A DNA stretch of 20,547 bases, taken from the IMG/VR virus record IMGVR_UViG_3300046462_000833, positions 1 to 20,547 of that record; one strand, written 5' to 3'. The notes below the pieces were generated by a model that did no database searches, was not told the DNA's origin, and saw only the letters and a program-made list of their open reading frames with translations. Position numbers and translations under genes: made by a program. This document shows, piece after piece, positions 486 to 20,547 of the stretch. Each line of letters begins with the position of its first letter. Positions within the stretch are counted from its first letter, which is position 1. This stretch comes from a virus.

Positions 486-529
486 TTGTCCGATAGCCTG
501 ATAAAAACGCCGCCTGCCGTCGAATCCGC

Positions 530-2326: not shown

Positions 2327-2396
2327 AAAATTGCTTGAAATATGGTCAAGCCGACCTAAAACACGTAAATCGGACTGCGCAGGAAGGCCGTCCGCA

Positions 2397-2426: not shown

Positions 2427-2438
2427 TAAAGGCTTTAG

Positions 2439-2476: not shown

Positions 2477-2516
2477 TGATAGTAGCACCAGATTGATTTA
2501 GACGGGCAGGAACGTA

Positions 2517-2570: not shown

Positions 2571-2673
2571 TTCTGTCAGCGGTTTAGGCTTATCAAAATT
2601 CAAACGGACAGAGTAAAGGCAGCTGCGGCGCGCAAATCAGTGTAACCAATTGGTATTTGAGGTATTTGATTCC

Positions 2674-5154: not shown

Positions 5155-5161
5155 GATTATT

Positions 5162-5196
5162 CGTGAATCATTCGCTGTTTTTTTGAATGATTCACG
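5162..5196. repeat. Perfect 12-bp inverted repeat just after rpoD
   Basis: CGTGAATCATTC (5162-5173) and GAATGATTCACG (5185-5196) are perfect reverse complements around an 11-base loop that contains seven Ts. An imperfect extension (ATTAT against ATAAT) lengthens the stem. It starts seven bases after the rpoD stop. The T-run sits inside the loop and not after the stem, so a classical intrinsic terminator is not evident. It may protect the 3' end of the rpoD mRNA or weaken read-through into the tRNA. Confidence 0.55.
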
Positions 5197-5204
5197 ATAA
5201 TTCC

Positions 5205-5235
5205 TTTACCTTTCGCCCACGTATTTTTCTATAAT
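5205..5235 (+). promoter_or_regulatory. Promoter for the tRNA gene
   Basis: A perfect -10 box TATAAT lies at 5230-5235. The best -35 candidate is TTTACC (5205-5210) with a long 19-bp spacer, so the -35 is weak. It lies between the rpoD 3' hairpin and the tRNA and would start RNA near 5242, leaving an 80-nt precursor leader to be trimmed. Confidence 0.5.
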
Positions 5236-5321
5236 ACGGGATTGATTTTAAGATGCTGCAGTGCGGTTGAGCGGATATGCGCAAAGACCACGAGCACGAC
5301 GCTGCAGCGCCCTAAGGAATT

Positions 5322-5400
<79 letters not shown>

Positions 5401-5418
5401 GTAAGAAGTAGTACCAGA

Positions 5419-5448
5419 GCGCCTGCTAGTGATAGCAGGCGCTTTTTT
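5419..5448 (+). terminator. Intrinsic terminator after the tRNA
   Basis: A perfect 10-bp stem GCGCCTGCTA (5419-5428) / TAGCAGGCGC (5433-5442) with a GTGA tetraloop is followed directly by six Ts. It ends the tRNA transcript and any read-through from rpoD. Confidence 0.9.
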
Positions 5449-5532
5449 ATTTGCCCGTCACGCTCCGCAATTCTACGACTGCTCCGCAAAACTCAATTAC
5501 CTGTGCGCCATCTGCTTAGTCACGCTGGCATC

Positions 5533-5569
5533 AAAAAAGCCCAATCGTTTAACGATGTGGGCTTTTTTT
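5533..5569. terminator. Bidirectional terminator between tRNA and mod
   Basis: AAAAAAGCCCA (5533-5543) pairs with TGGGCTTTTTT (from 5558), with a further inner stem ATCGTT (5544-5549) / AACGAT (5551-5556) and a one-base loop; G5557 is bulged. The T-run on one side and A-run on the other allow it to stop transcripts arriving from both strands. That fits its place between the plus-strand tRNA unit and the minus-strand res-mod operon. Confidence 0.85.
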
Positions 5570-5576
5570 ATACTTG

Positions 5577-5698
5577 TGACCCGTCCTGAAATAAGTTGAC
5601 ACTTTTCCGATGAAGAAAGGAAGTGTCATATGGAGCAAGGGACTAAGCGTCGTCCTATGGCGCCACTTCGGTGGCCGCCAAGTCCCCGCGAAGGATGA
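5577..5698 (+). mobile_element. Probable left-end remnant of an insertion sequence
   Basis: The stretch begins TGACCCGTCCTGAAATAAG, which looks like the terminal inverted repeat of an IS3-type element. It is followed by the perfect short repeat TGACACTT (5597-5604) / AAGTGTCA (5621-5628), a ribosome binding site (AAGGAAG) and an ATG at 5630. The frame from this ATG starts MEQGTKRR, like the basic start of an OrfA, but stops after 22 codons at 5698. A hairpin with a TTCG loop (5659-5679) sits inside it. No transposase body or right end is visible. The IS assignment is from pattern memory and is uncertain. It lies against the 3' end of the res-mod operon and may mark how that operon arrived. 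Confidence 0.42.
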
Positions 5699-5704
5699 TG
5701 AGTA

Positions 5705-8044
5705 CTAACCAACGTTCACCGGAACCAAAGTCATAGTGTCGTTACCAAAGATGTCGATCACCTTGACCGCCACGGTATAGCGCCCAGGGTGAACGTAGCG
5801 GTGCGCCGCGGTAGTCAATTCGAGATCCCTGTTCTGCCGCGTGCGGAAGCTCTGCCATTCATTCTCGAAAATGTAACCCCCGGTCCAACGTTCTTCGAAC
5901 GCAGGTTGTCCACTTTGCATAGTATCGGTGCTAGGCCGTATACCACCCACGCCCATATCGGACGGCACCTTGATAATTTCCTTGCGACTCATATAGTCGA
6001 AATCCACCGCCCAGTAATCTACCCAGTCGGTCCAGAGTTTGGTGAGTTTCTCCTTCTTTACGATACCGTCCTTGTTCTTGCTCACCTTGTAGAGCTGGCC
6101 CTGATCGCACAGCACCTGACTTTTACCTTCCTTGAGTCCTGCAATGGCAGCATCGGCAGCGCCCTGCGTGTAATAGACAGAAAAATCCGTCAGCTCGATG
6201 CTAACGGTGAACTTATCCTTCTTGTTGTAACGTGGCGTTGCTTCAACAAAGCTAATGTCATGAAACACCACCTGACCTTTATCTACCGCCCGCTTATCGA
6301 ATACCTCGACGGGGATATACTTCGGTGAAAGATCAATCCCTTTGCTACGTGCTTCTTCTAACACAGCCGGAAATAACCCCATCTCAAACTCAAAGGCGAG
6401 CACGTCGACCCGTGAGGCCCCGCGTTTGCGGCACTCGGTGATAACCTCTTCAACAAACAAGCGCCCGATCGGTAGGTTAATGGGTCCAATGACGACCAGC
6501 CGACCGTTTCGGGTACCATGAAAGAAGCCGTCTTGCGCTTGCACGCCATCACTACCACCCAGCTCCGTGGCTTTGTATGCGCGAAGGATCAGCTCACGAA
6601 ATTCGTTTTCCTTCTGGGCGAGTGCTTGCGCCTTCTGTTTGCCAGAGAGTCGCCCGCCGACGTTCAGGTAAGCCTGCCGCTCATAGCGACCCAAGTTGAG
6701 CACCTCGAAGGCGCGGAAATCTTGCTCGGCTGCCTTCTTTTCACGCTGCACGCCAATCAGTCGTTTGCGCGTAGTGTGGATGCCAAATTTTCCTAGGTCG
6801 GTAGCAATCCATTTCCGACCCAGCTTCTCGGCCACTGCGGCCGTGGTACCGCTGCCGCAGAAGAAATCGGCAATAAGGTCGCCTTCTTGACTGGAAGCTT
6901 TGATGATGCGTTCTAGGAGAGCTTCGGGCTTTTGAGTCGGGTAATCCAGCCGTTCTTTTGCCATTTGATTCACAGGAAATATATCGTCCCAAATGTCGCC
7001 AACTCTCGTGCCCTCATTGCCATCGAAGAATCGTTTCACATAAGGCACACCGTTCTTCGAGAATATGATGAGGCCTTCTTTCATACCGTCGTCAATGCGC
7101 TCCTGGGACCAAATCCAATGTTTGCCAGGGGGCGGAGTAAGAAGCTTGTCGCCGAACTTCCGTGCAGGGCCAGCACCATTTTGAGTGAAATTATCAAGGT
7201 TGTACCGACGACCGGAGGCCTCGTCAACATGACGGTAATGGGAGTCTAGCAACCGTTCATCTTTATCGACAAACTGCGGATCGAACAAAGGCGAATCCGA
7301 GCGAGCGAAGATGAAGATGCTGTCCTTGATATTTGAAAAATGACCGGATTGTCCCTTGGGTGATCGAAGTTTTTTCCACGCTACTTCAGCGATGAAAGTG
7401 CCAAATACTTCATCCAGCGCAAGACGAATGAACGAGCTTACCCGCCAATCACAATGCACATAAATTGACCCATCCTTTGCTAGCAAATCTCGCATCAGAA
7501 TCAGCCGTTCGTAAATCATTGCGATGAATGAGTCCGTCCCGCGACCCCAAGTATCGCGGTAGGCAATCTGTTCCAACAAATTCGGTTCCTTGTGAAAGGT
7601 TTCACCGCCGATCTCGATATCCATGCTGAAATCGGCTCCCACGTCAAACGGCGGGTCAATATAGATAAGCTTCAGTCCTCCTGCGTCTTCGATCTGCTGC
7701 CGCAATGCCCCGGCTTTGAGTGAAGATAGGATTAGCTTGTTGTCGCCCCATATCAGCTTGTTGGTCCAGCCGCGCAACTGGCGGCCACGACTGTCGAACA
7801 GGTCTTCCTGCTTTTTTGTCTCGGTTCGCGGTTCATCGATATGTTCCAACGATTGAAAAGGCAGCACCGTGGTACACACATCGCGCGTCTTGCCATTCCA
7901 GACAAGTTCAACTTCGCTTTTATCCTCGAATAAAATAAAGCGATACTTCTCGGGCAGGGCCTTACCCTGTTGGAGCAGCATAACAAGATCACGCTGTTCG
8001 GCTTCGCTCAAGTCATAGGATTTTTTTTCTTGTCGTGACATCAT
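5705..8044 (-). CDS. mod: Type III-like DNA methyltransferase (Mod)
   Basis: This is the adenine/cytosine N-methyltransferase subunit of a Type III-like restriction system, which would set the recognition sequence and protect host DNA. Catalytic motif IV DPPF is at about residues 130-133. TQKP (about 370-373) precedes the AdoMet-binding motif FCGSGTT (about 395-401). The DPPF-before-GSG order is the beta class used by Type III Mod subunits. Roughly 780 residues is longer than classical Mod. The extra C-terminus ends in a PKD-like strand pattern (PGRYTVAVKVIDIFGND). Three start codons lie in tandem (TTG 8047, ATG 8044, ATG 8041). AGAGG just upstream supports either ATG, and 8044 overlaps the res stop as TGATG. 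It is the second gene of the operon, which is the reverse of the usual mod-res order. The specific target cannot be told. Confidence 0.92.
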   Translation of the reverse strand: MMSRQEKKSYDLSEAEQRDLVMLLQQGKALPEKYRFILFEDKSEVELVWNGKTRDVCTTVLPFQSLEHIDEPRTETKKQEDLFDSRGRQLRGWTNKLIWGDNKLILSSLKAGALRQQIEDAGGLKLIYIDPPFDVGADFSMDIEIGGETFHKEPNLLEQIAYRDTWGRGTDSFIAMIYERLILMRDLLAKDGSIYVHCDWRVSSFIRLALDEVFGTFIAEVAWKKLRSPKGQSGHFSNIKDSIFIFARSDSPLFDPQFVDKDERLLDSHYRHVDEASGRRYNLDNFTQNGAGPARKFGDKLLTPPPGKHWIWSQERIDDGMKEGLIIFSKNGVPYVKRFFDGNEGTRVGDIWDDIFPVNQMAKERLDYPTQKPEALLERIIKASSQEGDLIADFFCGSGTTAAVAEKLGRKWIATDLGKFGIHTTRKRLIGVQREKKAAEQDFRAFEVLNLGRYERQAYLNVGGRLSGKQKAQALAQKENEFRELILRAYKATELGGSDGVQAQDGFFHGTRNGRLVVIGPINLPIGRLFVEEVITECRKRGASRVDVLAFEFEMGLFPAVLEEARSKGIDLSPKYIPVEVFDKRAVDKGQVVFHDISFVEATPRYNKKDKFTVSIELTDFSVYYTQGAADAAIAGLKEGKSQVLCDQGQLYKVSKNKDGIVKKEKLTKLWTDWVDYWAVDFDYMSRKEIIKVPSDMGVGGIRPSTDTMQSGQPAFEERWTGGYIFENEWQSFRTRQNRDLELTTAAHRYVHPGRYTVAVKVIDIFGNDTMTLVPVNVG

Positions 8045-10764
8045 CAAACCTCTTGGTATTTCCGAAACGTATTAACTAGACCGGCGAACGAGGACGGCTT
8101 GTGCTGTTCAAAGCCGGCCTGATCAACATACACGAAGTGGTAGCTTGGGCCACCCTCGATCTGGCTCGCCTCTGTCGCGTCTGCGCACCACTGGCGCAGG
8201 CGAGTCATCTTCTGCGGCAAGTCTAGCTCTTCTCGACCTTTGGTTTCGATTACCCAGACTTTGCCGTCTGTGGTCCTCACGATGAAATCCGGCGTATAAG
8301 TGGACAATTCGCCGTTGGCCTTCACATATTCAATCTTGAAGCCGACTGCCATGTAGTTCTTGCCAAAGGCCTGCACATCAGGCACTGAGTCAAGAAAGGC
8401 GGCGAAGTCTAATTCCAGACCATCAGCATTTGCTTCGCCAACGATTCGGTTGAACACGGATCGCTTGGCCTGCACGAACTTCCGAGGCTCTGTTCGGAAC
8501 GGTCTGGTGTCGCGCAAGCGGATATGTCCCTCGATGCGTGAGCTGCCGCTTTCATGAATCGTCAGTGCATTGATGGCCGCTCTGAACTGTTCAAAAAGGA
8601 CCTTACCGACCTCCGGTTCTGACAGATTGCGCAGGATCACCGGGTCTTCCAGATCGATAACGATAGTAAACAGATGGTCACGGATGAAGGTCTTGACCTT
8701 GGGATAGAGCTGTTCGTAGCCTCCCACCAAACGCAGATCCTTCAGCAGTTGGCTCGCAAAAAAACCGATGACGGACCGGTAGTCGCCCAACCCAATCCCG
8801 TCAAGTTGCACGATATGATGGACTTCGGCGTCGAGCATGGTCTTGAAGACAATCTCCCGTGTTTCTTCTGGAGTGAAAGGCTTGATCGGCAATTTCGCAT
8901 TGCCAAACGTGGTCGGATCGAGTTCAGCCAGATCCTTGAATTCCCGATTGAACCGCCGGGTCAGGCGAGGCAGGGCAATGTCGAGTGCATCGATGTTCTT
9001 ATCTGGCGTTTCCGTATCAACTTCAATGACCAGCGAGTCTTGCCGTTCGCGGCCACCAGATCCGCCCATCGGTACACGATCAAAGCTCACGCCTTCGTTT
9101 TGGATGGACTCGACGAACTCCATGAATGCCGGAGTACCCATGACGGAAACAGTCTCGCGTTGGTCGCTGCCAAAATACATGCGACGCAAACCACGCCCTA
9201 ATGTCTGTTCAGGGAGAATGTTGCTCTTGGCCGCGAAAGCCCGCAGGCCCACGATGGTGGTGACGTTACGGACGTCCCAACCTTCCTTCAACATTAGCAC
9301 CGAAACGATAGCCTTGTATGGGGATTTCCAGGTATCGATCTCGTTGGACTGTTTGCGTAGCAGTTCCAGTTCTTCCTTGTTTTTTCCGGACGCAGCTTCA
9401 GAAATATCGCCATTGTTCTTAGTGTGGATCACCAGCACCGCCCCTTGTAGCTCTGGGCAAATCTTCTCTAGGTGCGCCCCAACCTCATCGCAATTCTTAG
9501 TGTCGTCGACCATTACGAAAAGTACGGCCTTCTTATTGAGTTTTTCGTGTTCCACGTAACTTTTGCGCCATTCTTCGATGCCGAGCAATAGGTAATCCTC
9601 GTATTTCTCGGTAATGAGCGGACTCTTGCGCTCAGCCAGCTTAGCGCGGCTGACGGCATCCGGTAACACCGGGTGCTTCACTACATTCTGGGCAATGGCC
9701 TCGACGAGTGGGTAGTCACTGACTGTCTGGACGAAGATCGCGCCGTTGTTATGGCGCGGGGTGGCTGTGACATCAATCTGGAGCTTTAGCCGCAGATCCT
9801 TCTGCAGCATCCGATGGTGAATGTCCTGAATACTTTGAAACCACGCAAGTCGCTTGTCATGGATGTGGTGTGCTTCATCATTGAAGACGGCAAGTTCATC
9901 AATTTCCCGGACAATCTCGCCTAGATCGGTGTTGCTGTCGTTGGTCTTTCCCACCGGCTTGGGGCCGAATGGCGACAGGAAATAATCGGCTAGGTCGTCG
10001 TCTTCCAACGAAGGGGCCGCCACATCGCCAAGATAAACCCGATGGATGTTGGTTAGAAAAATATTGCCAGTGGGACGCACAATTCGGACATCGTCCTGAA
10101 TATGTAGGACGACTTGAAAGTCATCGCGCCAGTTGCGGCCGGCGTGCCCGTTATCGGGAAGAACCGGATCATTGAAAAAAATGCGAAGACCATCGAAGTC
10201 AGCCCTCAGGCGATCAAGCACGATGATGTTGGGCGCGATAAGCAAAAAGTTGCGCGAGAGCTCTGAATCTGGCTCGTAGACTTTGTGGAAATAGCTCCAG
10301 GCCATCAGCAACGAAAGCACTTTCGTCTTGCCCGCCCCCGTCGCCATTTTGATAACAAAACGTGGCCATTCCTCATCAAACATATTACTCGACACCGCTC
10401 CAGACGCGTCGAAGCGCAGCAGATCAAACTTATCTCGCACTCCCTTGGCGTCGTATAGCCATATGACTGTCTCCACGGCTTCCCGTTGGGCGAAGTAGTA
10501 GCGAAATTGAGACTGCGTGCCATCAGCGTGCTCGACGAAGTGATCTATATCAAACCACCAGTTTAGGAGCGCGCGCGACGTGGCAGAACTTCCGGCATAG
10601 CCGGAATCACGCCACACTTTGACTGCGCTGCGAATATTTGCAACGAGAGGCGGCAATAGCTTTTCGTATGCCGTGCTGCGAAGCTCTTCGGCCGCAGGGA
10701 ACCAACGCTGATTTGGGTCGAGCGTTTCGTACGGCGATAGCAAAAAGTTAGGGTGAAGAGCCAT
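8044..10764 (-). CDS. res: Type III-like restriction subunit (Res), helicase-nuclease
   Basis: A superfamily 2 helicase fused to a nuclease, which would translocate on or sense unmodified DNA and cleave it with Mod as partner. Visible motifs are Walker A MATGAGKT (140-147), DEAH (296-299), motif III TATP (333-336), a late helicase block with LKEGWDVRN, and motif VI QTLGRGLRR. The C-terminal PD-(D/E)xK nuclease signature is PDFIV (D826) followed by VIETKG (E840, K842). All key residues are present, so the enzyme looks intact. The 906-residue length is slightly short of classical Res (roughly 970-1000). It is first in the operon and coupled to mod by a stop/start overlap. The start ATG at 10764 has only a weakly placed GGGGA upstream. 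It could also be a stand-alone defence variant related to Type III. Confidence 0.92.
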   Translation of the reverse strand: MALHPNFLLSPYETLDPNQRWFPAAEELRSTAYEKLLPPLVANIRSAVKVWRDSGYAGSSATSRALLNWWFDIDHFVEHADGTQSQFRYYFAQREAVETVIWLYDAKGVRDKFDLLRFDASGAVSSNMFDEEWPRFVIKMATGAGKTKVLSLLMAWSYFHKVYEPDSELSRNFLLIAPNIIVLDRLRADFDGLRIFFNDPVLPDNGHAGRNWRDDFQVVLHIQDDVRIVRPTGNIFLTNIHRVYLGDVAAPSLEDDDLADYFLSPFGPKPVGKTNDSNTDLGEIVREIDELAVFNDEAHHIHDKRLAWFQSIQDIHHRMLQKDLRLKLQIDVTATPRHNNGAIFVQTVSDYPLVEAIAQNVVKHPVLPDAVSRAKLAERKSPLITEKYEDYLLLGIEEWRKSYVEHEKLNKKAVLFVMVDDTKNCDEVGAHLEKICPELQGAVLVIHTKNNGDISEAASGKNKEELELLRKQSNEIDTWKSPYKAIVSVLMLKEGWDVRNVTTIVGLRAFAAKSNILPEQTLGRGLRRMYFGSDQRETVSVMGTPAFMEFVESIQNEGVSFDRVPMGGSGGRERQDSLVIEVDTETPDKNIDALDIALPRLTRRFNREFKDLAELDPTTFGNAKLPIKPFTPEETREIVFKTMLDAEVHHIVQLDGIGLGDYRSVIGFFASQLLKDLRLVGGYEQLYPKVKTFIRDHLFTIVIDLEDPVILRNLSEPEVGKVLFEQFRAAINALTIHESGSSRIEGHIRLRDTRPFRTEPRKFVQAKRSVFNRIVGEANADGLELDFAAFLDSVPDVQAFGKNYMAVGFKIEYVKANGELSTYTPDFIVRTTDGKVWVIETKGREELDLPQKMTRLRQWCADATEASQIEGGPSYHFVYVDQAGFEQHKPSSFAGLVNTFRKYQEV

Positions 10765-11328
10765 TAAGTGTTTTTCCCCATTCGGCGTTTGATTGTCTTT
10801 AACTCACGCACGGCAGACAGCGTCATACGCCTATTCTTCTCGTAAAGTAATTGCAGCCTCTATAACGAAAACTGGATCACGCGAGACCAACCGCTGTGTG
10901 TGTTAGTTCTTGAACAAAACATTATGACTGACAATTGCCAGTTTTCAGTAGAAATTCAACTTTTCCTATTCACCATAATGCACAGCGTGATTCCTGCTGA
11001 GATTTGCAGCGATTTTTGCCGCTCGTAACGGCGATTGCATCCCATAAGCAGAAAATCAGACCCGCCAGCATGCCAAATTGCGTTCAACCACGGGCAACGT
11101 TACTGCCACCGGTATCGGTGCGACGGTGACCGACAGCGTCCTCTGTGTCGCAGAATGCCAACAAGAGTGTGAACTCTTGCAAAATTACCCAATCCTTAGT
11201 ATTTCCCCTTGGTAACTAAAGACATTGGCAGTTATGATTTAGTGAAATATTTATCAAGTAAAATGCCAATTGCATATATTGCTAAAAAACCATCTTAAAG
11301 TTGTCGGTTCAATCCTGAGGAACCCCGC
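10765..11328. other. Intergenic region between divergent res and vgrG
   Basis: No convincing gene was found on either strand of this 564-bp AT-richer stretch. It must hold the promoters of res (minus) and vgrG (plus), but no strong -35/-10 pair stood out. TTGGCA at 11225-11230 is a possible -35 for vgrG with only a weak -10 (TATTTA, 11248-11253). A perfect hairpin CAAGAGT-GTGA-ACTCTTG lies at 11162-11179 without a T-tract and could be an operator. The vgrG ribosome binding site GAGGA (11317-11321) is clear. The stretch from about 11070 to 11215 has short open frames resembling nothing I recognise. Confidence 0.5.
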
Positions 11329-13989
11329 ATGAGCAGTGTGTTCAAGTCTTTGATAATGGGGCGTCAGCATGGCCGCATATTGCGGCTGTCTTTCCCGCAC
11401 GACGATGGTCCCCAAGCCCAGCTCCTGGTCAACAAACTCGATGCAGTAGAAAGCCTGTCCCGCAACTTCGAATTTAATGTCGAATTGATATCTGATGATC
11501 CGACACTGGCGCTCAAGGACTTGCAAGGCAAGCTGTTCAGCGTAGAGCTGGTGCGGGCAGATGGCAGCCTCCGCTATTTCAGCGGTTTTTGTTTCGAGTT
11601 CCGTTTGACCAGGACCGATGGCGCCATTACGTTCTACCAGGCCAAGCTGGGTCCGTGGCTGCAGTATCTGCGGCTGCGCAAAGACAACTACATTTTTCAC
11701 GGCAAGACGCTGCGTGAGCAGATGGAAAGCATCTTCAGCGACTACGGCACCCATCCCGACTGGGATTTCCAAGTGCGCGGTGCAGATGCGGTAATGACTG
11801 ACGCTTGCCAGTTCGGCGAGAGCGACTACAACTATTTGCATCGTCGCTGGGAGGCCGCCGGCTGGTCGTACTGGTACGAACATACAGAAAAGGGTCACAA
11901 GCTGATCCTGGCCGACGATACCACCCAGGCCGCAGCCATCGACAATGGCCCCGACATACGCTTCCAGCGCCACGGCGGCGCGACCGAAGAAGACGGCATA
12001 GGCGACTGGTCGCCGGTGCGGCAGATCGTGCCGGGCAATGTCACGCTGGCGGGATTCAATTTCAAAAATCCCGTTCCGTTCAGTGCAGGCGTACCGACCC
12101 TGAACAAGCAAGGCAACGTCCTCGATATCGAATCCTATGAATATACCGGCGCCTATGGCGCCAAGGATGCCGGGGATGCGGATAAATTGGCGCGGCTGCG
12201 CATGGAAGAGATCGAAGCGACTGGCAAGCACTTCGAGGCAGCAGGCAATAACCGCTCGGTCCTTCCTGGGCGTTATTTTCGTCTGACCAGCCACTTTGCC
12301 TTCAATCCTTTCGGCAGCAAAGAAGAGGCCGGCAAGAGCGAGTTCCTGATCCTGTCGGTGCATCATGTCGCCATCAATAATTACCTGCAGCAGGCCGACG
12401 AAAAAGCGCACTACGATAACCGCCTGACCTGCATCCGCAAAACGATTCCATGGCGGCCAGGCCGGGGTTTCAATAGCGTCGCCACAAAAATCCTGGGGCC
12501 GCAAACCGCCACGGTAGTCGGTCCATCCGGACCGGACAGCATCCATACCGACGAATACGGCAGGATCCGCGTGCAGTTCCATTGGGACCGCATCGGTAAC
12601 AACGACGAAAAGAGTTCGGCCTGGGTGCGCGTCGCCAGTTCGTGGGCCGGCGGCCAGCTCGGCGCCAAAGCGATTCCCCGGGTTGGGGCCGAAGTGATTG
12701 TAATGTGGCTGGACGGTAATCCAGATCGTCCGCTGGCGACTGGCGCTGTCTATAACCAGCGCAATATGCCGCCGTGGAAACTGGCAACGCAACAGGCGCT
12801 GATGGGTTTGCGTAGCCGTGAGCTGACGCCGAACGGTGGCAACGCTGCCGGCGGCCGCAGCAATCACTTGATCCTGGACGACACCAACGCCAAGATCCAG
12901 GCGCAGCTCAAGAGCGACCACCAGCACAGCCAGCTGAGCCTGGGACATATCACGCGCATTGAGGACAACGCCGGCCGCAAGGATGCGCGGGGCGAGGGCT
13001 GGGAGCTGCGCACCGACGGCCACGGCGTGGCGCGTTCGGCCAAGGGCATGCTGATTACCACCGAAGGCCGTGGCAATGCAGCGTCGCACATGAAAGACAT
13101 GGGCGAGACGGTGCAACGCCTCACCTCGGCGCGTGACCAGCATGAAACACTGGCCGATATGGCACAGCAGGCAGGGGCACAGGACAAGCAAGGGCAGCAA
13201 GCCGATATCGCCAAGATCCTCAAGGCGCAAAATGATGCGATCAAGGGCAGCGGCGCCAGCAGCGAAGGAAATTTCCCGGAACTGTCGGCGCCGCATCTGG
13301 TGCTGGCTAGTCCAGCTGGAATTGAAACCACAACAGCCCAGTCGACCCACGTAGCAAGTGGCGAACACACTGCGATTACGACCGGAAAAAGTCTCTCTAT
13401 CGCCAGCGGCGACAGCTTGTTTGCCAGCATCCGCCAGACCTTCCGGCTGTTTGTCCAAAAGGCTGGCATCAAGTTGGTCGCAGCGGCTGGTGACATCGAG
13501 GTACAGACGTTGACTGATAGCATCAACCTCCTGGCAAAACTGAACATCACACAAACCGCGAATCGCATCACGATCACGGCTAAGGAAGAAGTGATGATTA
13601 ATGGTGGCGGCAGCTACGCCAAGTTCAATACCGGCGGAATCGAACACGGAACGAACGGTGTCTATGTTGCGCATGGCGCGTCGCATAGCCTACCAGGGGC
13701 GAAGAGTCTGCCCGTTGTAATCAACCCGACGACAGCCGAATTAAACGGGCACAGCGCGCAATTTATTCTAAAAACAGAAAAGGGGAAACCAATGGCAAAT
13801 TACCCCTATGTCATGGAATCCGCAGAAGGACATCGCTTTGAAGGGATTACCGATCAAGACGGGAAAACGCAGCGTGCCTATACTCCCCAGGCGGTCCAAT
13901 TTTCTGTGAGGAAGAATCCAAACAAAGCGGACAACGATATACAAACACCAGAAAGAACGGAGCGCTTCAATGACGAATTCTACGGCTGA
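11329..13989 (+). CDS. vgrG: Type VI secretion spike protein VgrG
   Basis: VgrG trimers form the tip of the type VI secretion needle and carry effectors into neighbouring cells. The first 400 or so residues are the gp27-like base (for example ESDYNYLHRRWEAAGWSYWYEH). The gp5-like OB-fold follows near 400-480 (DEYGRIRVQFHWDR, then GAEVIVMWLDGNPDRPLATG). Next is the VgrG-typical LRTDGHGVARSAKGMLITTEGR segment, a coiled and repetitive DUF2345 needle region, and a final domain of about 75 residues (FILKTEKGKPMANYPYV, then EGITDQDGKTQRAYT) of the transthyretin-like type often used as an effector adaptor. The start ATG has GAGGA seven bases upstream. Its 3' end overlaps the next gene by 20 bp. No other T6SS structural genes are in the window, so this is an orphan vgrG cluster. 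The 810-aa antisense frame is a shadow. Confidence 0.96.
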   Translation: MSSVFKSLIMGRQHGRILRLSFPHDDGPQAQLLVNKLDAVESLSRNFEFNVELISDDPTLALKDLQGKLFSVELVRADGSLRYFSGFCFEFRLTRTDGAITFYQAKLGPWLQYLRLRKDNYIFHGKTLREQMESIFSDYGTHPDWDFQVRGADAVMTDACQFGESDYNYLHRRWEAAGWSYWYEHTEKGHKLILADDTTQAAAIDNGPDIRFQRHGGATEEDGIGDWSPVRQIVPGNVTLAGFNFKNPVPFSAGVPTLNKQGNVLDIESYEYTGAYGAKDAGDADKLARLRMEEIEATGKHFEAAGNNRSVLPGRYFRLTSHFAFNPFGSKEEAGKSEFLILSVHHVAINNYLQQADEKAHYDNRLTCIRKTIPWRPGRGFNSVATKILGPQTATVVGPSGPDSIHTDEYGRIRVQFHWDRIGNNDEKSSAWVRVASSWAGGQLGAKAIPRVGAEVIVMWLDGNPDRPLATGAVYNQRNMPPWKLATQQALMGLRSRELTPNGGNAAGGRSNHLILDDTNAKIQAQLKSDHQHSQLSLGHITRIEDNAGRKDARGEGWELRTDGHGVARSAKGMLITTEGRGNAASHMKDMGETVQRLTSARDQHETLADMAQQAGAQDKQGQQADIAKILKAQNDAIKGSGASSEGNFPELSAPHLVLASPAGIETTTAQSTHVASGEHTAITTGKSLSIASGDSLFASIRQTFRLFVQKAGIKLVAAAGDIEVQTLTDSINLLAKLNITQTANRITITAKEEVMINGGGSYAKFNTGGIEHGTNGVYVAHGASHSLPGAKSLPVVINPTTAELNGHSAQFILKTEKGKPMANYPYVMESAEGHRFEGITDQDGKTQRAYTPQAVQFSVRKNPNKADNDIQTPERTERFNDEFYG

Positions 13990-14932
13990 GCCATTAGGCG
14001 AAACGACCGCAGACACGGATCACACAAAAGTTGAGCAGGTAACGGTGGCTTGTGCGTGCAACCGAGACATCACACTCGATGAATTGAAAGAAGCATATCC
14101 AGATCGCAAGAAAGCAATTCTGGAGAAATTTCTTCCCGAGTTAAACGCCACGATGAAGAGTTACGACATCACCAGCTGTTTGCGCAAAGCTCATTTTTTG
14201 GCGCAGGCAGGACATGAATCATCGGAATTGTTCTATACGGCTGAGAATGTATCAGCGGAGATTGAGAAAAAGAATTACGGTGGCTATAAAGGGCGTGGGC
14301 TAATCCAGATCACAGGCAAAGGGAACTATACAGCTTACGGTGCCTATATTAAGCAGGATCTACTGCTAGAAAATCGGCTTAAAGTCGAAGAAACCAAACT
14401 CGCAACAGACTCGGCAGGCTGGTTCTGGCTAACTGGAAGAAGTGAAAGTCTAAATATATATGCCGATCAAAATGACTTGCTATACATTTCAGCTGAAATC
14501 AATGGTGGATATAACGGGTACGAAGGCCAGTCCACTTCACGATTGCGCTTGTTGAAAAATGCAGTAGATTCGCTCCATGTCGTTGCGTGTCCGCAGTTAG
14601 ATGCGTTGTTCACTGCATTCCCTGAGGCAGCAAAGTTCACATATGAAACCTTTAAGCTGGAAAACAGCAAGGCTTATGACAAGCTCGACATGGCGTTCGC
14701 CTGGGGTTATTGGCATGATCCAAAGTCGACAATGCATGGAACAAAAAAAGATGTGGAACTAGCCAAGCTTGGCTATAGTCGATACGTTGAGTTATACGAT
14801 GGTTTGACAGCGGCTCAGATAAAAAAATTACCTGACAAGAGATTTGGCATTGAGCGAAAAAATATGAAACCACACGCAGAAAAACGCCTAACAGAATTGG
14901 CATCAACCACTACAGAGAAAACATCAAAATGA
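13970..14932 (+). CDS. GH19-type peptidoglycan/chitin hydrolase, probable T6SS effector
   Basis: A 320-residue protein of the glycoside hydrolase 19 (chitinase/lysozyme) fold. The diagnostic parts are HFLAQAGHESSELFYTAEN, with H82-E83 giving the likely catalytic glutamate, and YKGRGLIQITGKGNY (106-120), the substrate-cleft signature. A later block (DSAGWFWLTGR, ISAEINGGYNGYEG) also fits. Bacterial members usually cut the glycan strand of peptidoglycan. There is no signal peptide, so it needs another route to the periplasm. Its start overlaps the vgrG end by 20 bp (GGAG at 13959-13962), which points to loading on that VgrG as cargo. The next gene encodes a likely periplasmic protector. The fold call is firm; the effector role is inferred from context. 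A prophage endolysin origin is the main alternative. Confidence 0.88.
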   Translation: MTNSTAEPLGETTADTDHTKVEQVTVACACNRDITLDELKEAYPDRKKAILEKFLPELNATMKSYDITSCLRKAHFLAQAGHESSELFYTAENVSAEIEKKNYGGYKGRGLIQITGKGNYTAYGAYIKQDLLLENRLKVEETKLATDSAGWFWLTGRSESLNIYADQNDLLYISAEINGGYNGYEGQSTSRLRLLKNAVDSLHVVACPQLDALFTAFPEAAKFTYETFKLENSKAYDKLDMAFAWGYWHDPKSTMHGTKKDVELAKLGYSRYVELYDGLTAAQIKKLPDKRFGIERKNMKPHAEKRLTELASTTTEKTSK

Positions 14933-15378
14933 AATCTATTCCTGCATTGTTCGGCGCGTACCTTTGCCTATCCATTTCCTTGCTAACTCCGGCCGCCGCG
15001 CATGCTGCGGGTGTTGAGTCTGACTTGCGTTGTTTTGTAGGGACTTCTCCGCAAAAAACGAAACTGGAGATGATGCGATATTCGGACGATGCTCACGGCA
15101 GCTGGACTGGGGGATATGTCAAATATGGAAAAAACAAACCTCCGATTACGATCGTCTACGTGTCAAGCAAAACGTTAGATCAACCGGAAGGACGCCCCGC
15201 ATATTTTGAAAGTACATGGTTGGAAGTTGCTACGTCAGATGTGACAGGAAAATATATTGTTGGCTCCCAAGGCGCAAACGTTTACTCACTTGAATATGTC
15301 AGTCGTAAATCCGATAAAAAATATTCATTTGACGAAACTATTGAGCGGAATTCTACGGATGACGGTTGTAAATGGTGA
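14929..15378 (+). CDS. Small secreted protein, probable immunity protein to the GH19 effector
   Basis: A 149-residue protein with a clear Sec signal peptide: MK start, hydrophobic core to about residue 20 and a signal-peptidase site around AAAHAA (22-27). The mature part has two cysteines, one near the start (RCFVG) and one at the very end (DGCKW), that could form a disulfide in the periplasm. I do not recognise the family. Its ATG overlaps the stop of the hydrolase gene by four bases, so the two are made together. Cell-wall-degrading T6SS effectors are usually paired with a periplasmic immunity protein encoded right after them, and size, location and coupling all fit. No terminator is evident after it. 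Confidence 0.78.
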   Translation: MKSIPALFGAYLCLSISLLTPAAAHAAGVESDLRCFVGTSPQKTKLEMMRYSDDAHGSWTGGYVKYGKNKPPITIVYVSSKTLDQPEGRPAYFESTWLEVATSDVTGKYIVGSQGANVYSLEYVSRKSDKKYSFDETIERNSTDDGCKW

Positions 15379-15442
15379 GTTTTTAGAATTGATCTAGCTG
15401 TATTAAATTAGACTCGATCATACATGTAGCGTCCAATCTCGT

Positions 15443-15556
15443 TCATGCCGGACAATCGTTATATATTTCATGCGGCCAGTCCGACAGCGGCAGACGCATG
15501 GCGGAGACTGTCGACGGTAGCCTATCTCGCGGCGTCGCATTGTAATTTGTACACAT
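15443..15556 (-). pseudogene. Broken start of an SRAP/YedK-like (SOS-response-associated peptidase) gene
   Basis: On the minus strand an ATG at 15556 opens a 37-codon frame beginning MCTNYNATPRDRL and later SDWPHEIYNDCPA, then stops at 15443. SRAP proteins (YedK/HMCES) start with Met-Cys, Cys2 being the residue that crosslinks abasic sites, and continue with TNY and a W/YP-x-E-x-Y segment. The match is short but well placed. Just past the break another frame reads RHERDWT, as if the coding sequence continued after a frameshift. The remaining roughly 180 residues of the family are absent. It lies 28 bp after the stop of a LexA-controlled gene on the same strand, so it looks like the decayed second gene of an SOS operon. 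This call rests on pattern recognition of a short peptide. Confidence 0.5.
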
Positions 15557-15584
15557 AATCGGATCTCATTAGTACGTTCCCGAT

Positions 15585-15926
15585 CTAGTCTACCTGCGCA
15601 GCGACCTTTTGTTGAGTCGTCAGCTCCAATACCTTCACCTTCCAGCTCTGCGCAAAAGATTGCTGCAGCACCTCATCTTTCTGGATGCCGGTTATCAGGA
15701 TGTGATCACTATAAATCCATGTGACTGCGGCGTCTTGAAGCGGCGACAGTGAATCAAAACCACTATTCAGCAGCCGCGCTACCAAGGTCGGGCGATCTGC
15801 AGAACCATCGCTCCTATGGCGCTCAAGGCGCAGTTCTCCACACACGCAATTCATTTTGCGCTTGATTAACTCACCTCGTTCAAGCAAGCGCCCCTCATCC
15901 CAAAGGCTTTCCACTCTGACAAACAT
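15585..15926 (-). CDS. SOS-regulated protein of unknown function
   Basis: A 113-residue soluble protein with no signal peptide or membrane segment. It has a basic N-terminal part (LLERGELIKRKMNCVCGELRL, with a CxC pair) and a C-terminal ITGIQKDEVLQQSFAQSW segment. I do not recognise a named family. Expression is almost certainly damage-inducible: a LexA operator lies 12-39 bases before its ATG, and GAGGTG gives a good ribosome binding site. The gene downstream on the same strand is a probable broken SRAP. It may be a DNA-repair helper of the kind found beside SRAP or UmuDC genes, or, given its place near a P2-like cos site, a phage gene analogous in position to the LexA-controlled tum of phage 186. 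The first is slightly favoured. Confidence 0.75.
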   Translation of the reverse strand: MFVRVESLWDEGRLLERGELIKRKMNCVCGELRLERHRSDGSADRPTLVARLLNSGFDSLSPLQDAAVTWIYSDHILITGIQKDEVLQQSFAQSWKVKVLELTTQQKVAAQVD

Positions 15927-15937
15927 TTTTCACCTCA

Positions 15938-15965
15938 CATATACTGTATTTATGTACAGTATATG
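15938..15965. promoter_or_regulatory. LexA operator (SOS box)
   Basis: The core CTGT (15944-15947), eight bases, ACAG (15956-15959) matches the LexA consensus exactly. The symmetry extends to 11-bp perfect arms (CATATACTGTA at 15938-15948 and TACAGTATATG at 15955-15965). It lies directly upstream of the minus-strand gene starting at 15926 and contains -10-like TATACT on that strand, so LexA binding would block its promoter. The plus-strand ATPase gene starts 168 bp away on the other side and could in principle be affected too. Confidence 0.92.
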
Positions 15966-16036
15966 CAGTTTGTAGATTTATGGAATAACCGCATAGCCCC
16001 TTACCCAACTCATGATGAATTGAGATTTAAAAGTAC

Positions 16037-16079
16037 CCCACATTGCGACAGGCCGCAGATTTCCCTGTGGTAATGTAGG
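16037..16079. repeat. Imperfect 16-bp inverted repeat upstream of the ATPase gene
   Basis: CCCACATTGCGACAGG (16037-16052) and CCTGTGGTAATGTAGG (16064-16079) are reverse complements at 13 of 16 positions around an 11-base centre. It lies 54 bp before the ATPase start codon, inside its presumed promoter/leader. It could be an operator, a leader hairpin, or a piece of an insertion-sequence end; no transposase is near it. Confidence 0.45.
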
Positions 16080-16133
16080 ATGACATTTAATTAATTGGGA
16101 CGACTTTTACATTCTAAATGAGGGATTTCAGAC

Positions 16134-17837
16134 ATGACCGTCAAAACCGTCGAAGCTGTTATCACTCGATTTCTCAAAAGCGAGTTACCCGAAGTATTGG
16201 CGCTCAATGGCGCTTGGGGAGTTGGTAAAACATTCGCATGGAATCAAATTCTGACAAAACACAAGGACGACATTAAGCTTGAAAAGTACAGCTATGTGTC
16301 TTTGTTCGGCATGTCTTCGATAGCAGAACTTCGTACTGCAATATATGCAAAATCGAATGCAGTCCGATTCATTGGTGAGAGGCCAAGCGCTGAAGTAATA
16401 AATAAAGAGTGGTGGGAATTTACTAAGCAAGGATGGAGATGGGTCTCGCAGCGCGCCAGCATTCTCAAGGATTTGCCGTATATGAAGACTATTTCAACGA
16501 CGCTCGAGACTTTGGCACCCTATCTAACTCGCGATACCATCGTTTGCCTAGACGATTTCGAACGTCTGTCTCCAGACCGTATCAAGGCCGACGAGCTTCT
16601 TGGACTCATTTCTGAACTCAAGGAAGAAAAGGGATGTAAGGTTGTTTTGATTTTCAACGAATCTGAATTGCATGACACGGGTGACTACAAAAAGTATCGC
16701 GAAAAGGTAATTGATATCGAACTGACCTTTGCTCCGACCGCTGACGAGGCAACAGATTTAGCCCTTCCGCCTGACTTACCTAATCGCGAAACGATAAAAA
16801 AATATGTGTTGTTGCTCAATATTAAAAATATTCGAATACTCAAGAAAATTGTCAGCCTAACAAAAATAATGAACGTTGAACTTGCTGGCCTTCATAACTT
16901 GGTAATGGAGCAAGCCGCAATGACGCTGGTTCTTTTAGTTTGGTGTCACTATGACTCGACCGATAAAAAACCTCCGCTAGATTTCGTCATCAAATGGAGT
17001 CGCGTAAGTTGGCATTTAAGGGACAAGAAAGAAAAAGAGACGGTGGAACAAAAGACCCTCTGGGCGACCACTCTTCAAAATTACGGGTTTGAAAAATTCG
17101 ACGAATTTGATCTATCGATTCACAAATTTATAGAACAAGGTTTTCTCGAAGAGACAGGACTTTCAGATGAAGCCCGGAAGTTGGATTCAACGTTCCGGGC
17201 AAACGATATCGACCAGTCATTCACCACAGCTTGGCGCATGTTTCATGACACATTCTCTGATAATAAAAATGAACTGATACCAGCGCTGATCGAAGGTGTT
17301 CAAAAGGCTGTGAAGCGTCTGTCGCCATCGAGCTTACACAGCACGGTTCGGCTGCTACGTGAATGTGGAGAAGACGACAAAGCAAATGATTTAATCGAAT
17401 ATTATTTGCAAGCCAGATCAGACGAGAATAAGATTTTTAATCTTGTCGGCGGTCCTTTCAGTAGCGATTTCACCGACGCCATATTCATAGAGCGTTTTGC
17501 TGCGAAATATACCGAGAGTCAGATCACCGTACCGTTGCTTGATGCCGCTAGACACATTAGCGGAGGCCCGTCACGAGACGACATCGCAGCCCTCACCAAG
17601 GCAAGCGAAAATGATTTCATCGAGCTTTTCAAACTTGAGCACGGCACTCAACACCACTCATTAGTTTCATCATGTGTTGATCTCATAAATTGGGGGGACT
17701 ATAAATCAATAGGTGAGACGGCGCGTGCTGCATTGATTCGTATTGGTAGAGAAAATCATCTCAACGCAATGCGAGTGAAACGATTTGGAGTCGATGATGA
17801 CGAGCTAAATGATAACAAACCGGCCGCAAAACAATAG
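16134..17837 (+). CDS. KAP-like P-loop ATPase, candidate anti-phage protein
   Basis: A 567-residue P-loop NTPase of the KAP/AAA-like type. Walker A is GAWGVGKT (26-33). A conserved-looking VSLFGMSSIAELRTAIY follows (55-71). Walker B is TIVCLDDFERL (135-145) and a sensor-like strand VLIFNESEL is at 171-179. The rest, from about residue 200 on, is helical with no recognised domain and no clear membrane spans, unlike many KAP proteins. It is soluble and cytoplasmic by appearance. The start ATG has GAGGGA upstream (16119-16124). The gene is visibly AT-richer than dnaG/rpoD, suggesting transfer. It stands alone, facing a putative P2-type cos site 234 bp away, which is the slot where P2-like prophages keep variable immunity genes. 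The ATPase call is firm; the defence role is inferred from position and family. Confidence 0.85.
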   Translation: MTVKTVEAVITRFLKSELPEVLALNGAWGVGKTFAWNQILTKHKDDIKLEKYSYVSLFGMSSIAELRTAIYAKSNAVRFIGERPSAEVINKEWWEFTKQGWRWVSQRASILKDLPYMKTISTTLETLAPYLTRDTIVCLDDFERLSPDRIKADELLGLISELKEEKGCKVVLIFNESELHDTGDYKKYREKVIDIELTFAPTADEATDLALPPDLPNRETIKKYVLLLNIKNIRILKKIVSLTKIMNVELAGLHNLVMEQAAMTLVLLVWCHYDSTDKKPPLDFVIKWSRVSWHLRDKKEKETVEQKTLWATTLQNYGFEKFDEFDLSIHKFIEQGFLEETGLSDEARKLDSTFRANDIDQSFTTAWRMFHDTFSDNKNELIPALIEGVQKAVKRLSPSSLHSTVRLLRECGEDDKANDLIEYYLQARSDENKIFNLVGGPFSSDFTDAIFIERFAAKYTESQITVPLLDAARHISGGPSRDDIAALTKASENDFIELFKLEHGTQHHSLVSSCVDLINWGDYKSIGETARAALIRIGRENHLNAMRVKRFGVDDDELNDNKPAAKQ

Positions 17838-18070
17838 CTAGTGACAAATCCTTCTCATCAATCTTTGCAAGATAATCGGCCGTGAACCACTACAAACTAC
17901 AGGCGACTTGAATTTTTTACTTCCCCTGGTCCAGTCGCAAGGGTTCAGTCCAAAAGTGCATTATTTTGCGTCAATTCGTTGCAGGCGATTTTCCCGCATG
18001 CCCCGCGCAACTTAGAGGTCTGGCGTTTTTGCGCACTGCGTTAAAAGCAGCACATTTAACGAAGCCCCCA
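17838..18070. other. Non-coding stretch left of the putative cos site
   Basis: No gene with a credible start or family likeness was found between the ATPase stop and the cos candidate; the non-coding interval continues past cos to the zinc-ribbon gene at 18218. No obvious intrinsic terminator follows the ATPase gene. Short related words recur (TTTTGCG at 17963, TTTTTGCGC at 18026), which may be packaging-enzyme binding sites next to cos, but this is only a suggestion. A small hairpin GGCCG-TCGC-CGGCC lies at 18096-18109, just past cos. Confidence 0.5.
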
Positions 18071-18089
18071 GGCGTGGGGGGGACTGCGT
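18071..18089 (+). other. Putative cos (cohesive end) site of a P2-like phage
   Basis: The 19-bp word GGCGTGGGGGGGACTGCGT resembles the cohesive-end sequences of P2-type phages as I remember them: about 15 of 19 positions agree with phage 186 and about 13 of 19 with P2. Orientation and position also fit, because in P2 the genome begins with this word and the portal gene follows on the opposite strand, as here. The preceding CCCCC (18065-18069) makes a small hairpin with the G-run. It was identified by eye against remembered sequences. Confidence 0.55.
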
Positions 18090-18217: not shown

Positions 18218-18427
18218 TCAGCGTCCGGCGCGCCTGAGCGCCTCCTGTTCCTTCTCGTAATCATCCCGGCAATCCGTATTGCAGAACAGCGCGCCATGGG
18301 CGACATGCTCATCGCAGTAATGGCACCGGCCATCGGCTTCCAACTGCGGCGTGCGACGCGCATGTGCCATGGCGGCCTTGATGTCCTGGGCAATGCGCCA
18401 GTCGGCGCGGTCGGCTACATCGCTCAT
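18218..18427 (-). CDS. Small zinc-ribbon phage protein
   Basis: A 69-residue protein with a four-cysteine zinc-ribbon pattern in its second half: CHYC, then 12 residues, then CNTDC (C35, C38, C49 and C53 by count). The start is charged and helical. It resembles small zinc-ribbon proteins found after the portal gene in betaproteobacterial P2-like prophages; its function is not known. It is not the late activator Ogr, whose cysteine spacing and neighbourhood differ. Its ATG overlaps the portal stop by four bases, so it is the third gene of the operon, followed by a terminator. P2 itself has no counterpart here that I recall. Confidence 0.78.
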   Translation of the reverse strand: MSDVADRADWRIAQDIKAAMAHARRTPQLEADGRCHYCDEHVAHGALFCNTDCRDDYEKEQEALRRAGR

Positions 18428-19479
18428 GCTGCTTTCCCTTCCATGTTCCCCAATGTGTACTCGCTAAATTTCACTACCTCTTCCCCCATCCATTCATTGA
18501 TCGTTAAGAACTGCGATTGCAGCGGCACCAGCTCGTTGCGGGCGAACACTCGCGCCGCCGGTTCCACCGCACCGAAGCCGCCGGCATTGCTCGGCATGAT
18601 TCCCATCAGCTGCGGCGGCACGCGGTGCGCCGCCAGCAGGTCGTCCCTGGTCACGCCCTTGATGTTAAAAAATTCGTCCTTCGCGGCGACCTCGGACACC
18701 GGCAGGATCTGAATGCCGTCCTTCTTGCCCCCTGGGGCGTACATGAACACGTTGCGGAAATTGCCCGGCCCCTTGCTCTCGCGCAGCGCAGTGCGCAGCT
18801 TGTCCACGTCCTTGATGTCCTGGGCCGCATCGGTCATGTAGAGAATGAAACCAGCGTGAGAACCGTTCTTGTAATACTTGCGCCGGAACAGGGTGGCCGA
18901 TTCATTGAGCCAGGCCGACTGCAAAGCAGACAGGTACTGCGGCAAGCCGTACACTTCCTGGTTCACGTCTGGATCCATCAGGTGGAATACCGTCCCCCTG
19001 GGGAAGGCGTGTTCCTGTTTCCACCCCTGCACAAAGAAATAGTTATCCAGCTCCTGCCCGCGCCGCGTGTACTTGGCGAGTGAGTGGGTCAACTGCACCA
19101 GCCGACCCGTGCGGCTGCTGCGCTGTTCCGGGTAGGCATTACCGAAGGTCAGGAAATCCAGCGCCAGGCGTTTAAACGTATCCCGTGACAGGTATTTGTT
19201 CGGCAAGAACGTTGAGGTCAGGATGTTCGTTTTGAAATAGATCGCGCTGCTATGGTGGACACTGGCGTTAAACGACTTCGCCAGGCCCTGCCAGCTGACA
19301 GGCGGCTCGTACCAGCGGCCATTGAGCCAGCATTCCAGGTTCTCCATGATGTCGGCCTGATCCAGCACCGGCATCGGGTCGCCGAACGAAAACGCCTCCA
19401 TCGATGGCGCCGGCGGCGCTGCCTGGTCAGATGGTTCCGCTGCGGCTTGCTGGGTTCGTTTGAATCGTTGTTTCTTCAT
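18424..19479 (-). CDS. P2-like phage portal protein (gpQ family)
   Basis: The portal ring forms the DNA entry vertex of the capsid and docks the terminase. This protein has 351 residues against about 344 in P2 gpQ. Family features are WYEPPVSWQGLAKSFNASVHH near the start of the conserved part, the central HLMDPDVNQEVYGLPQYLSAL, GSHAGFILYMTD, and the late VPPQLMGIMPSNAGGFG with NELVPLQSQF. The first 30 residues are a variable Ala/Pro linker. Its ATG overlaps the terminase stop by four bases and its stop overlaps the zinc-ribbon gene the same way. Gene order and strand match the P-Q operon of P2. It looks intact. Confidence 0.95.
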   Translation of the reverse strand: MKKQRFKRTQQAAAEPSDQAAPPAPSMEAFSFGDPMPVLDQADIMENLECWLNGRWYEPPVSWQGLAKSFNASVHHSSAIYFKTNILTSTFLPNKYLSRDTFKRLALDFLTFGNAYPEQRSSRTGRLVQLTHSLAKYTRRGQELDNYFFVQGWKQEHAFPRGTVFHLMDPDVNQEVYGLPQYLSALQSAWLNESATLFRRKYYKNGSHAGFILYMTDAAQDIKDVDKLRTALRESKGPGNFRNVFMYAPGGKKDGIQILPVSEVAAKDEFFNIKGVTRDDLLAAHRVPPQLMGIMPSNAGGFGAVEPAARVFARNELVPLQSQFLTINEWMGEEVVKFSEYTLGNMEGKAA

Positions 19480-20547
19480 CCCGTAAAAATCTCCATAAAT
19501 GAGGTGGTGGCTTTCGATATGCCCTCAATCGGTTCGTGATCGAGCGCGTGCATGCAGGCCCAGGCCAGGTCGGCATGGCCGGTTTCGTCGGTACGGCCAG
19601 CGTCGTAGGTGACTTGCCTGCCGCTGGCGGTAATGGTTTTGCGGATCGCCATAAAGGCTTGCGCCAGGTCGGTGGCGCCGGCGTCGAATTCCAGGCGTCC
19701 CTTGCTGATGACGTCCTTGGCTTTCAAGACCATGCGGACCTTGACCTCGGCGGAATAGTTGATCGCGGTCGCATTTGGAAAGAACTGCTTCACTATCGGA
19801 AACACGCCAATGCCCATGCCGGTCGTGTCGATGCCGATATAGTCGACCTGGTAGCGCAGGGTCATTTGCCGGATGGCCTCGGCCTGGGCCGCAAAGTCCA
19901 TGCCGCGCCATTGATGACGCTCCAGGACGCGGAACTTGCCGCCGGCAACCAACGGCGGCGCCAGCACCACGCAGCCGGCGCTGTCGCCGGTCAATGAGGG
20001 GTCGTAGCCGATCCAGACCGAGCGGTAGCCGAACGGACGCGCCGCAAACGGTTTGACGTCGTCCCAGGCTTCCCAGGAATCGACCATGCAGCGCTGCAGC
20101 TCGGCCAGCGGGAATATCGATGCGGTGTCATCGATAAAATTACACATGAGCAGGTTCTCGAACTGGTCGGGGCTGTATTCGAAATTGCGCAGCTCATCGA
20201 TGTCGAACAGATTGCAGCCGCCCCGCTCTGCATCCAGAATGGTCACAATCTGGCGCCAGATCTTGTCTTGCCCCGTAAAACCGCTCATCAGCTTGGCGTG
20301 GCTGATATCAATCTTGACCTGGTCGGCTTTGGGCCGGCGCTTGTTGAACAACTCGCCAGTCCAGAATGGATACGCCTGGTGCGTGGTCGATGACGGCGTC
20401 GAAAAATACGTTTTGCGCCATTGCTTGTGCAGCGCCATGCCGGATGCGACCTTGTTCAATTCCTGGAAATTGTGGGTCCAGAAAAATTCGTCAAAGTAGA
20501 AATTGCCGTGATAGCCCTGGGCTGTTCTCGCATTGGTGCCCAGGAAA
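19476..20547 (-). CDS. P2-like terminase large subunit (gpP family), 5' end outside window
   Basis: This is the ATPase/nuclease that cuts phage DNA at cos and pumps it into the procapsid. The frame stays open to the right edge, so about 356 C-terminal residues are visible of a protein that has about 590 in P2; a TTG at 20459 is only an internal codon. Just before it the frame reads YFDEFFW, the Walker B strand with its catalytic DE, then the family-typical ELNKVASGMALHKQWRKTYF. The C-terminal RNase H-like nuclease shows its aspartates in WIGYDPSLTGDSAG, YIGIDTTGMGIGV and HADLAWACMHALDH. It is the first gene of the operon with portal and zinc-ribbon genes. No break is seen in the visible part. 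Confidence 0.94.
   Translation of the reverse strand, partial: FLGTNARTAQGYHGNFYFDEFFWTHNFQELNKVASGMALHKQWRKTYFSTPSSTTHQAYPFWTGELFNKRRPKADQVKIDISHAKLMSGFTGQDKIWRQIVTILDAERGGCNLFDIDELRNFEYSPDQFENLLMCNFIDDTASIFPLAELQRCMVDSWEAWDDVKPFAARPFGYRSVWIGYDPSLTGDSAGCVVLAPPLVAGGKFRVLERHQWRGMDFAAQAEAIRQMTLRYQVDYIGIDTTGMGIGVFPIVKQFFPNATAINYSAEVKVRMVLKAKDVISKGRLEFDAGATDLAQAFMAIRKTITASGRQVTYDAGRTDETGHADLAWACMHALDHEPIEGISKATTSFMEIFTG

Follow-up and report, generated by a model that had tools for sequence, protein, structure and literature searches.

A P2-like Collimonas prophage carries, in its cos-proximal cargo slot, a KAP-like ATPase gene for a putative single-protein anti-phage factor

Analysis of a 20,547-bp IMG/VR virus record (IMGVR_UViG_3300046462_000833), the whole of which is referred to as the window, revealed a gene for a KAP-like P-loop ATPase beside the packaging site of a P2-like Collimonas prophage. 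We consider this protein a putative single-protein anti-phage factor, encoded by a lysogenic-conversion gene in the cos-proximal slot of the prophage, with a probability of about 0.6; it would shield the lysogen, and with it the prophage, against other phages. This reading is based on the recurrence of the gene at the cos/Q slot, the defence-rich neighbourhoods of its chromosomal relatives, a PDC-S49 match shared by 60 of 60 relatives, a patchy presence, an ORC/TnsC/RdrA-like core and a likeness to QatA. Weighed against it were the non-defence cargo known from the slot, the part-length PDC-S49 match, a neighbourhood tally made at the level of models, the absence of a visible effector, Foldseek matches confined to the core, and the dispensability of QatA.

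The left end of the window is host DNA: positions 1 to 5401, which carry yqeY, dnaG, rpoD and tRNA-Met, share 98.9% identity with Collimonas sp. OK412, and this similarity ends at 5401, the 3′ end of tRNA-Met, with inserted DNA rightwards of there. The two ends of the inserted DNA seen in the window are marked by the following features.

5322..5400, plus strand: tRNA-Met, the 3′ end of which is the attachment site attL (ARAGORN; OK412 identity stops at 5401)
18071..18088, plus strand: cos-like packaging site GGCGTGGGGGGGACTGCG, resembling P2 cos GGCGAGGCGGGGAAAGCACTGCG
18218..18427, minus strand: DksA/TraR-like zinc-finger gene of the prophage (phrog_54, E 3.4e-9)
18424..19479, minus strand: portal protein Q (phrog_68, E 1e-161)
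19476..20547, minus strand: terminase ATPase P, running off the record end (62.7% identity to P2 gpP over 351 aa; Terminase_6C)

The cos pattern has a single match in the window, versus about 0.06 expected per strand, and it is followed by Q and then P, the same order as in P2. Its core, GGCGTGGGGGGGACTGCG, is kept in five other Collimonas P2-like prophages, with the G run one base shorter in two of them. From about position 17,900 rightwards, the DNA (cos flank, zinc-finger gene, Q and P) shows 81-86% identity to other Collimonas prophages, and the ATPase gene is not common to these. The element is a P2-like prophage integrated in the Collimonas chromosome, in which 12.5 kb of cargo (5402-17837) lies between the tRNA-Met attL and the cos/Q/P packaging end. 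A search of the region's DNA against phage records gave no match. The tRNA-Met behind rpoD is an integration hotspot: at least five Collimonas genomes have copies of 40-50 bp of its 3′ end (5354-5395 in the window), at distances of about 3.5-59 kb downstream.

The gene had originally been assigned to the interval between gene A and cos, where P2 carries old and tin. We searched the window, which ends inside P, and found neither gene A nor an integrase. The island at tRNA-Met in Collimonas G021 is a P2-like prophage bounded on the far side by a 48-bp copy of the tRNA end; inwards from there follow the integrase, A, ogr and C, then tail and head genes, P and Q, and, up to the tRNA, cargo of about 15 kb. 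Gene A was placed 23-31 kb from Q, on the tail side, in all six Collimonas P2-like prophages having both genes on one contig. Thus, this lineage is permuted on the chromosome relative to P2, with the integrated order attL-cargo-cos-Q-P...A-int-attR (L205-L212), and the circular-map order A-int-attP-cargo-cos-Q is kept in the one prophage traced in full. That the window represents a rearranged or broken prophage, since A is absent, was rejected on account of the position of A in those six prophages. The cos- and Q-proximal P2 cargo site of the original assignment was recovered, with the amendment that the window lacks A and the gene lies between the tRNA-Met attL and cos.

The slot resembles that of old/tin and of the E. 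coli P2 hotspot systems in being a cos-proximal cargo site between replication and portal genes on the circular map, but the ATPase is unrelated to those proteins, and the Collimonas attachment site falls inside the interval, so that the cargo abuts tRNA-Met rather than gene A. In other Collimonas prophages, the slot holds a type II restriction-modification (R-M) system (G018), a type I secretion and Tle1-like set, a VgrG cassette, or an adhesin. As the Collimonas prophages show, cargo in the P2 slot can extend over about 12-15 kb and combine R-M with T6SS genes.

The ATPase gene and its parts are as follows.

16134..17837, plus strand: KAP-like P-loop NTPase of 567 aa, phrog_4740/PDC-S49-like (ORF; PF07693; phrog_4740; PDC-S49)
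16209..16232, plus strand: Walker A GAWGVGKT, residues 26-33 (G26, W28, G29, G31, K32 and T33 invariant in 60 relatives)
16362..16535, plus strand: helical insertion, residues 77-134 (low-pLDDT helices at the site of the transmembrane pair in KAP proteins)
16536..16568, plus strand: Walker B TIVCLDDFERL, residues 135-145 (D140, D141 and R144 invariant in 60 relatives)
16884..17798, plus strand: C-terminal all-helical repeat region, about residues 251-555 (pLDDT 92.2 when predicted alone)

The ORF is intact, with an ATG start and 567 codons, and is oriented towards cos; the distance from its stop to the start of the cos-like site (18071) is exactly 234 bp. Its GC content is 0.44, versus 0.58-0.59 in the host DNA and packaging genes. 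The original prediction of an AT-rich, 567-aa P-loop ATPase with Walker A and B motifs, facing a P2-type cos from 234 bp away, was borne out in each of these respects: both motifs are perfect, their key residues are invariant in the 60 relatives, and the cos site is conserved in Collimonas prophages. Motifs common to the relatives are GxWGxGKT, YxYxSLFG and CxDDxER. Also conserved are C168-K169, N175, E190-K191 before a VID strand, N232 and R234, and we read N175 as the sensor-1 position, E190-K191 as the position of an AAA+ finger, and N232 with R234 as the sensor-2 position. Conserved residues are scattered over the C-terminus (W310, D326, G336, W367, D448, N544 and R547), where inspection of the residues conserved in 60 relatives revealed no visible catalytic signature.

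The gene had been described as standing alone, which is true locally only, as it shares the 12.5-kb cargo with a type III R-M system, a VgrG-GH19 cassette and a gene with a LexA box.

5705..10764, minus strand: type III restriction-modification, mod 5705-8047 and res 8044-10764 (PADLOC MTase_III, E 9e-111; REase_III, E 4e-20)
11329..15378, plus strand: T6SS VgrG 11329-13989, GH19 lysozyme-like gene 13970-14932 and a 149-aa protein 14929-15378 (Pfam; PHROGs endolysin, E 5e-35)
15585..15926, minus strand: 113-aa gene, divergent neighbour of the ATPase gene (87% and 68% identical homologues in two Collimonas genomes)
15944..15959, no strand assigned: LexA-type box CTGTATTTATGTACAG (sole CTGT-N8-ACAG in the window, 0.15 expected)

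The 87% identical homologue of the 113-aa gene, in G012 (L214), has a conserved upstream box, and the 68% identical one, in G014 (L215), lies beside a 90% identical VgrG. Judging from the box, the 113-aa gene is probably SOS-controlled. A LexA box serving the ATPase gene itself was considered and rejected: only 1 of 162 relatives has such a box within 300 bp upstream, and the box was assigned to the divergent gene. VgrG cassettes occur near Q in two Collimonas P2-like prophages (11329-15378 in the window and 5514-9596 in L207), which suggests that these phages carry T6SS parts for the host.

With such neighbours, the ATPase could be non-defence cargo, acting in stress or competition or as a partner of the SOS gene or the VgrG cassette, and merely using the P2 slot, which carries many kinds of genes (PMC9122126). 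We regard this as very unlikely: apart from Q, neighbours are not conserved among the relatives, near which no homologue of the 113-aa SOS gene or of VgrG was found and a GH19 gene in only six cases, and chromosomal relatives sit with defence genes.

Next, the family of the protein was considered. It matches PF07693 (KAP) with E 1.4e-8 and 34.8 bits (gathering score, 20), and phrog_4740 over nearly its full length (E 6.1e-68; protein 2-550, profile 2-622 of 627). The PADLOC model PDC-S49 is matched with E 2.8e-29 over protein positions 23-371 of 567 and model positions 28-377 of 624, and PDC-S49 models are matched by all 60 relatives. NB-ARC (STAND/NLR-like, Avs type) stayed below the cut-off (E 0.0073; 16 bits versus 23.5). 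Tmn, PifA and QatA were not among the PADLOC matches up to E 1, the PADLOC library contents for these three being not established. By these profile matches, the family is already catalogued (PHROG 4740, PADLOC PDC-S49) and the window protein is a new member of it. It is shorter than PHROG 4740, a family of phage proteins of unassigned function (567 aa versus 627 profile positions). With PDC-S49, a single-gene defence candidate, it shares the NTPase core and the first part of the helical region, but its last third falls outside the alignment. The original claim of a new C-terminal part was not supported in that form, since the C-terminal half is already within PHROG 4740 and the family is flagged as PDC-S49; this part is uncharacterised, not unseen. 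PDC families are mostly candidate-level and come from a guilt-by-embedding approach (PMC12988326), and our literature search found no paper naming PDC-S49 and no published test of it.

To place the protein structurally, we compared its predicted model (pLDDT 89.5 for the full ATPase) with known folds. Residues 1-283 match ORC/Cdc6, TnsC and RdrA of RADAR with Z 12-14, at an rmsd of mostly 3.3-4.5 over about 205-230 residues and 10-16% identity, and the core is accordingly predicted to adopt an ORC/TnsC/RdrA-like AAA+ fold. Only this core fold is shared with these proteins, however; Foldseek matches are confined to the NTPase core and the C-terminal half is unmatched. A search by sequence found no solved structure. 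The C-terminal half had been described as helical, and the model agrees, being all-helical there with good confidence. Folded alone, the C-terminal 318 residues gave only generic TPR/HEAT-like helical-repeat matches, the best of which (Z 7.7 over 89 residues) is below the informative level for helical models.

Classical KAP NTPases have transmembrane helices inserted between Walker A and Walker B. In the ATPase family, the insertion at this place is 50-74 residues long and, in 60 of 60 relatives, has no 19-residue stretch with hydropathy above 1.6 (median, 0.84), and for this reason we call the protein KAP-like rather than classical KAP. These values bear on whether the ATPase is a membrane-active exclusion protein in the manner of PifA or Tmn, whose insertion would contact the membrane on activation and cause a leak. 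Such a mode of action, for which KAP homology and the helical nature of an insertion lying exactly at the KAP transmembrane site can be cited, appears unlikely in view of the low hydropathy throughout the family. Compared with PifA, Tmn and QatA, which are KAP NTPases with defence roles, the window protein has the same KAP-type P-loop core, but it has no transmembrane pair and no qatBCD partners and is encoded by a single gene.

Single-sequence scans of bacterial genome contigs and viral contigs yielded no relatives; an alignment query did, and a seven-sequence profile search retrieved 336 bacterial genome stretches and 120 viral contigs, of which the best 80 of each were kept. Since the viral collection makes residence in a phage trivial, the informative part is the position within the phage. 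Q is also present in 36 of the best 80 (of 120) viral loci, and in 33 of these 36 the ATPase gene and Q converge tail-to-tail at a distance of no more than 1.3 kb, which in most cases is 25-50 bp. Together with one genome locus, these make 34 loci, which form 18 clusters when grouped at 90% identity, 12 clusters at 70% and 5 at 50%; A is upstream on the same strand in 31. Locating cos by its pattern, we found it just before the ATPase gene, placing the gene in the cos-Q interval, in 32 loci (30 viral, a Pantoea plasmid and a Serratia genome), and between the ATPase gene and Q, as in the window, in two (L101 and L131). The ATPase thus docks on either side of cos, a two-sidedness absent from the original prediction, and most relatives, unlike cargo of the P2 slot, lie across cos. 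A search of E. coli genomes with the relatives matched no more than a short segment around cos, from the locus of one relative; the ATPase gene itself had no match. In another Collimonas P2-like prophage, a relative of 28% identity (G023:C31:46645-47934) lies near gene A, not cos.

That the gene adjoins cos and Q so strictly across very diverse P2-like phages, whichever side of cos it is on, and that it is oriented towards Q would also be expected if the ATPase served the prophage cycle, by controlling cos cleavage or packaging, by P2 entry exclusion, or by blocking P4-type satellites that share cos, the site being functional rather than a cargo dock. This is improbable in our estimation: P2 itself lacks the gene, as do most Collimonas P2-like prophages, in which R-M, secretion or adhesin genes occupy the slot, and close relatives are found well away from any P2 genes, in a BREX operon and on SSU5-size phage-plasmids and conjugative plasmids; moreover, the anti-satellite version would still be a form of defence. 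Further relatives are carried by roughly 109-kb (SSU5-size) phage-plasmids of E. coli and Klebsiella and by plasmids of rhizobia, Cupriavidus and Nostoc, conjugative plasmids included. Only 3 of 15 Collimonas genomes have a relative, and this patchy, non-core distribution does not fit the core chromosomal setting that had been named as evidence against a defence role.

The expectation that homologues lie at the cos/Q end of P2-like prophages or near defence genes was supported on the second point by the chromosomal loci. As many as 103 PADLOC models (E 1e-10) were matched by 110 chromosomal neighbour proteins, versus 11 by 108 control proteins, a tally that counts models and not genes (one R-M gene can match many models) and whose controls came from arbitrary stretches of other and fewer genomes, mostly Collimonas. 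In Sulfurisoma (L060), full-length pglZ and brxL of BREX lie directly upstream, and the ATPase gene starts 3 bp after brxL. Other chromosomal neighbours include a type IIG R-M system (L016), a DpdF/PsyrT-like helicase (L026) and an OLD/AriA-like ATPase (L010); plasmid neighbours include a TIR-domain gene at one locus, and ThiF and Mov34 with DUF4238 elsewhere. A DUF4238 protein is one validated P2-hotspot system (PMC9122126). The P2 slot is a tested defence hotspot in E. coli (PMC9122126; PMC9519451), and type III restriction enzymes, which the window has too, are among its known contents. The slot also carries partition and toxin genes, i.e., non-defence cargo (PMC9122126), and the position in the slot alone is therefore moderate evidence and no proof of defence.

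As to how an anti-phage ATPase of this kind might work, a sensor-triggered, ATP-dependent assembly that itself acts as the effector is a tentative proposal, drawn by analogy and somewhat short of an even chance. The protein would rest in an inactive nucleotide state; the C-terminal superhelix might recognise a phage product or phage DNA; and the ATPase could then form a ring or filament in an ATP-dependent manner, like ORC/TnsC/RdrA folds and QatA, and this assembly would block phage DNA replication or packaging or abort the infected cell. No nuclease, deaminase or transmembrane effector part is visible in the ATPase, so the assembled ATPase, or the flexible insertion at residues 77-134, would itself be the output. 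For QatA, which is a KAP NTPase, DNA binding and assembly into a heptamer or octamer have been reported (PMC13279940), and it is dispensable for full defence against some phages, i.e., not required against all.

Members of the phrog_4740/PDC-S49 family are frequent among proteobacteria and phages (one search each gave 336 genome stretches and 120 viral contigs), and the family's fixed position at cos in diverse P2-like phages puts the family among the better-supported defence candidates. A broader and more doubtful generalization is that soluble KAP/ORC-like AAA+ ATPases with a helical-repeat sensor may form a widespread single-protein defence, detecting and stopping phage without a separate effector and docked repeatedly by P2-like phages at cos, on either side. 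The members in Collimonas, in other P2-like phages, in a phage-plasmid and beside BREX form a natural allele series, and the family bears on the question of whether an ORC-like ATPase can suffice as an immune protein on its own. Two further observations concern the relatives. A second phage setting recurs in some non-P2 viral contigs (L144, L146, L150 and L151), where a GH19 endolysin gene is followed, no more than about 1 kb downstream, by the ATPase gene. Collimonas OK412 has a distant copy (36% identity; L028 8001-9656 / L202) with an in-frame TAG in the matched stretch, yet L028 reads open.
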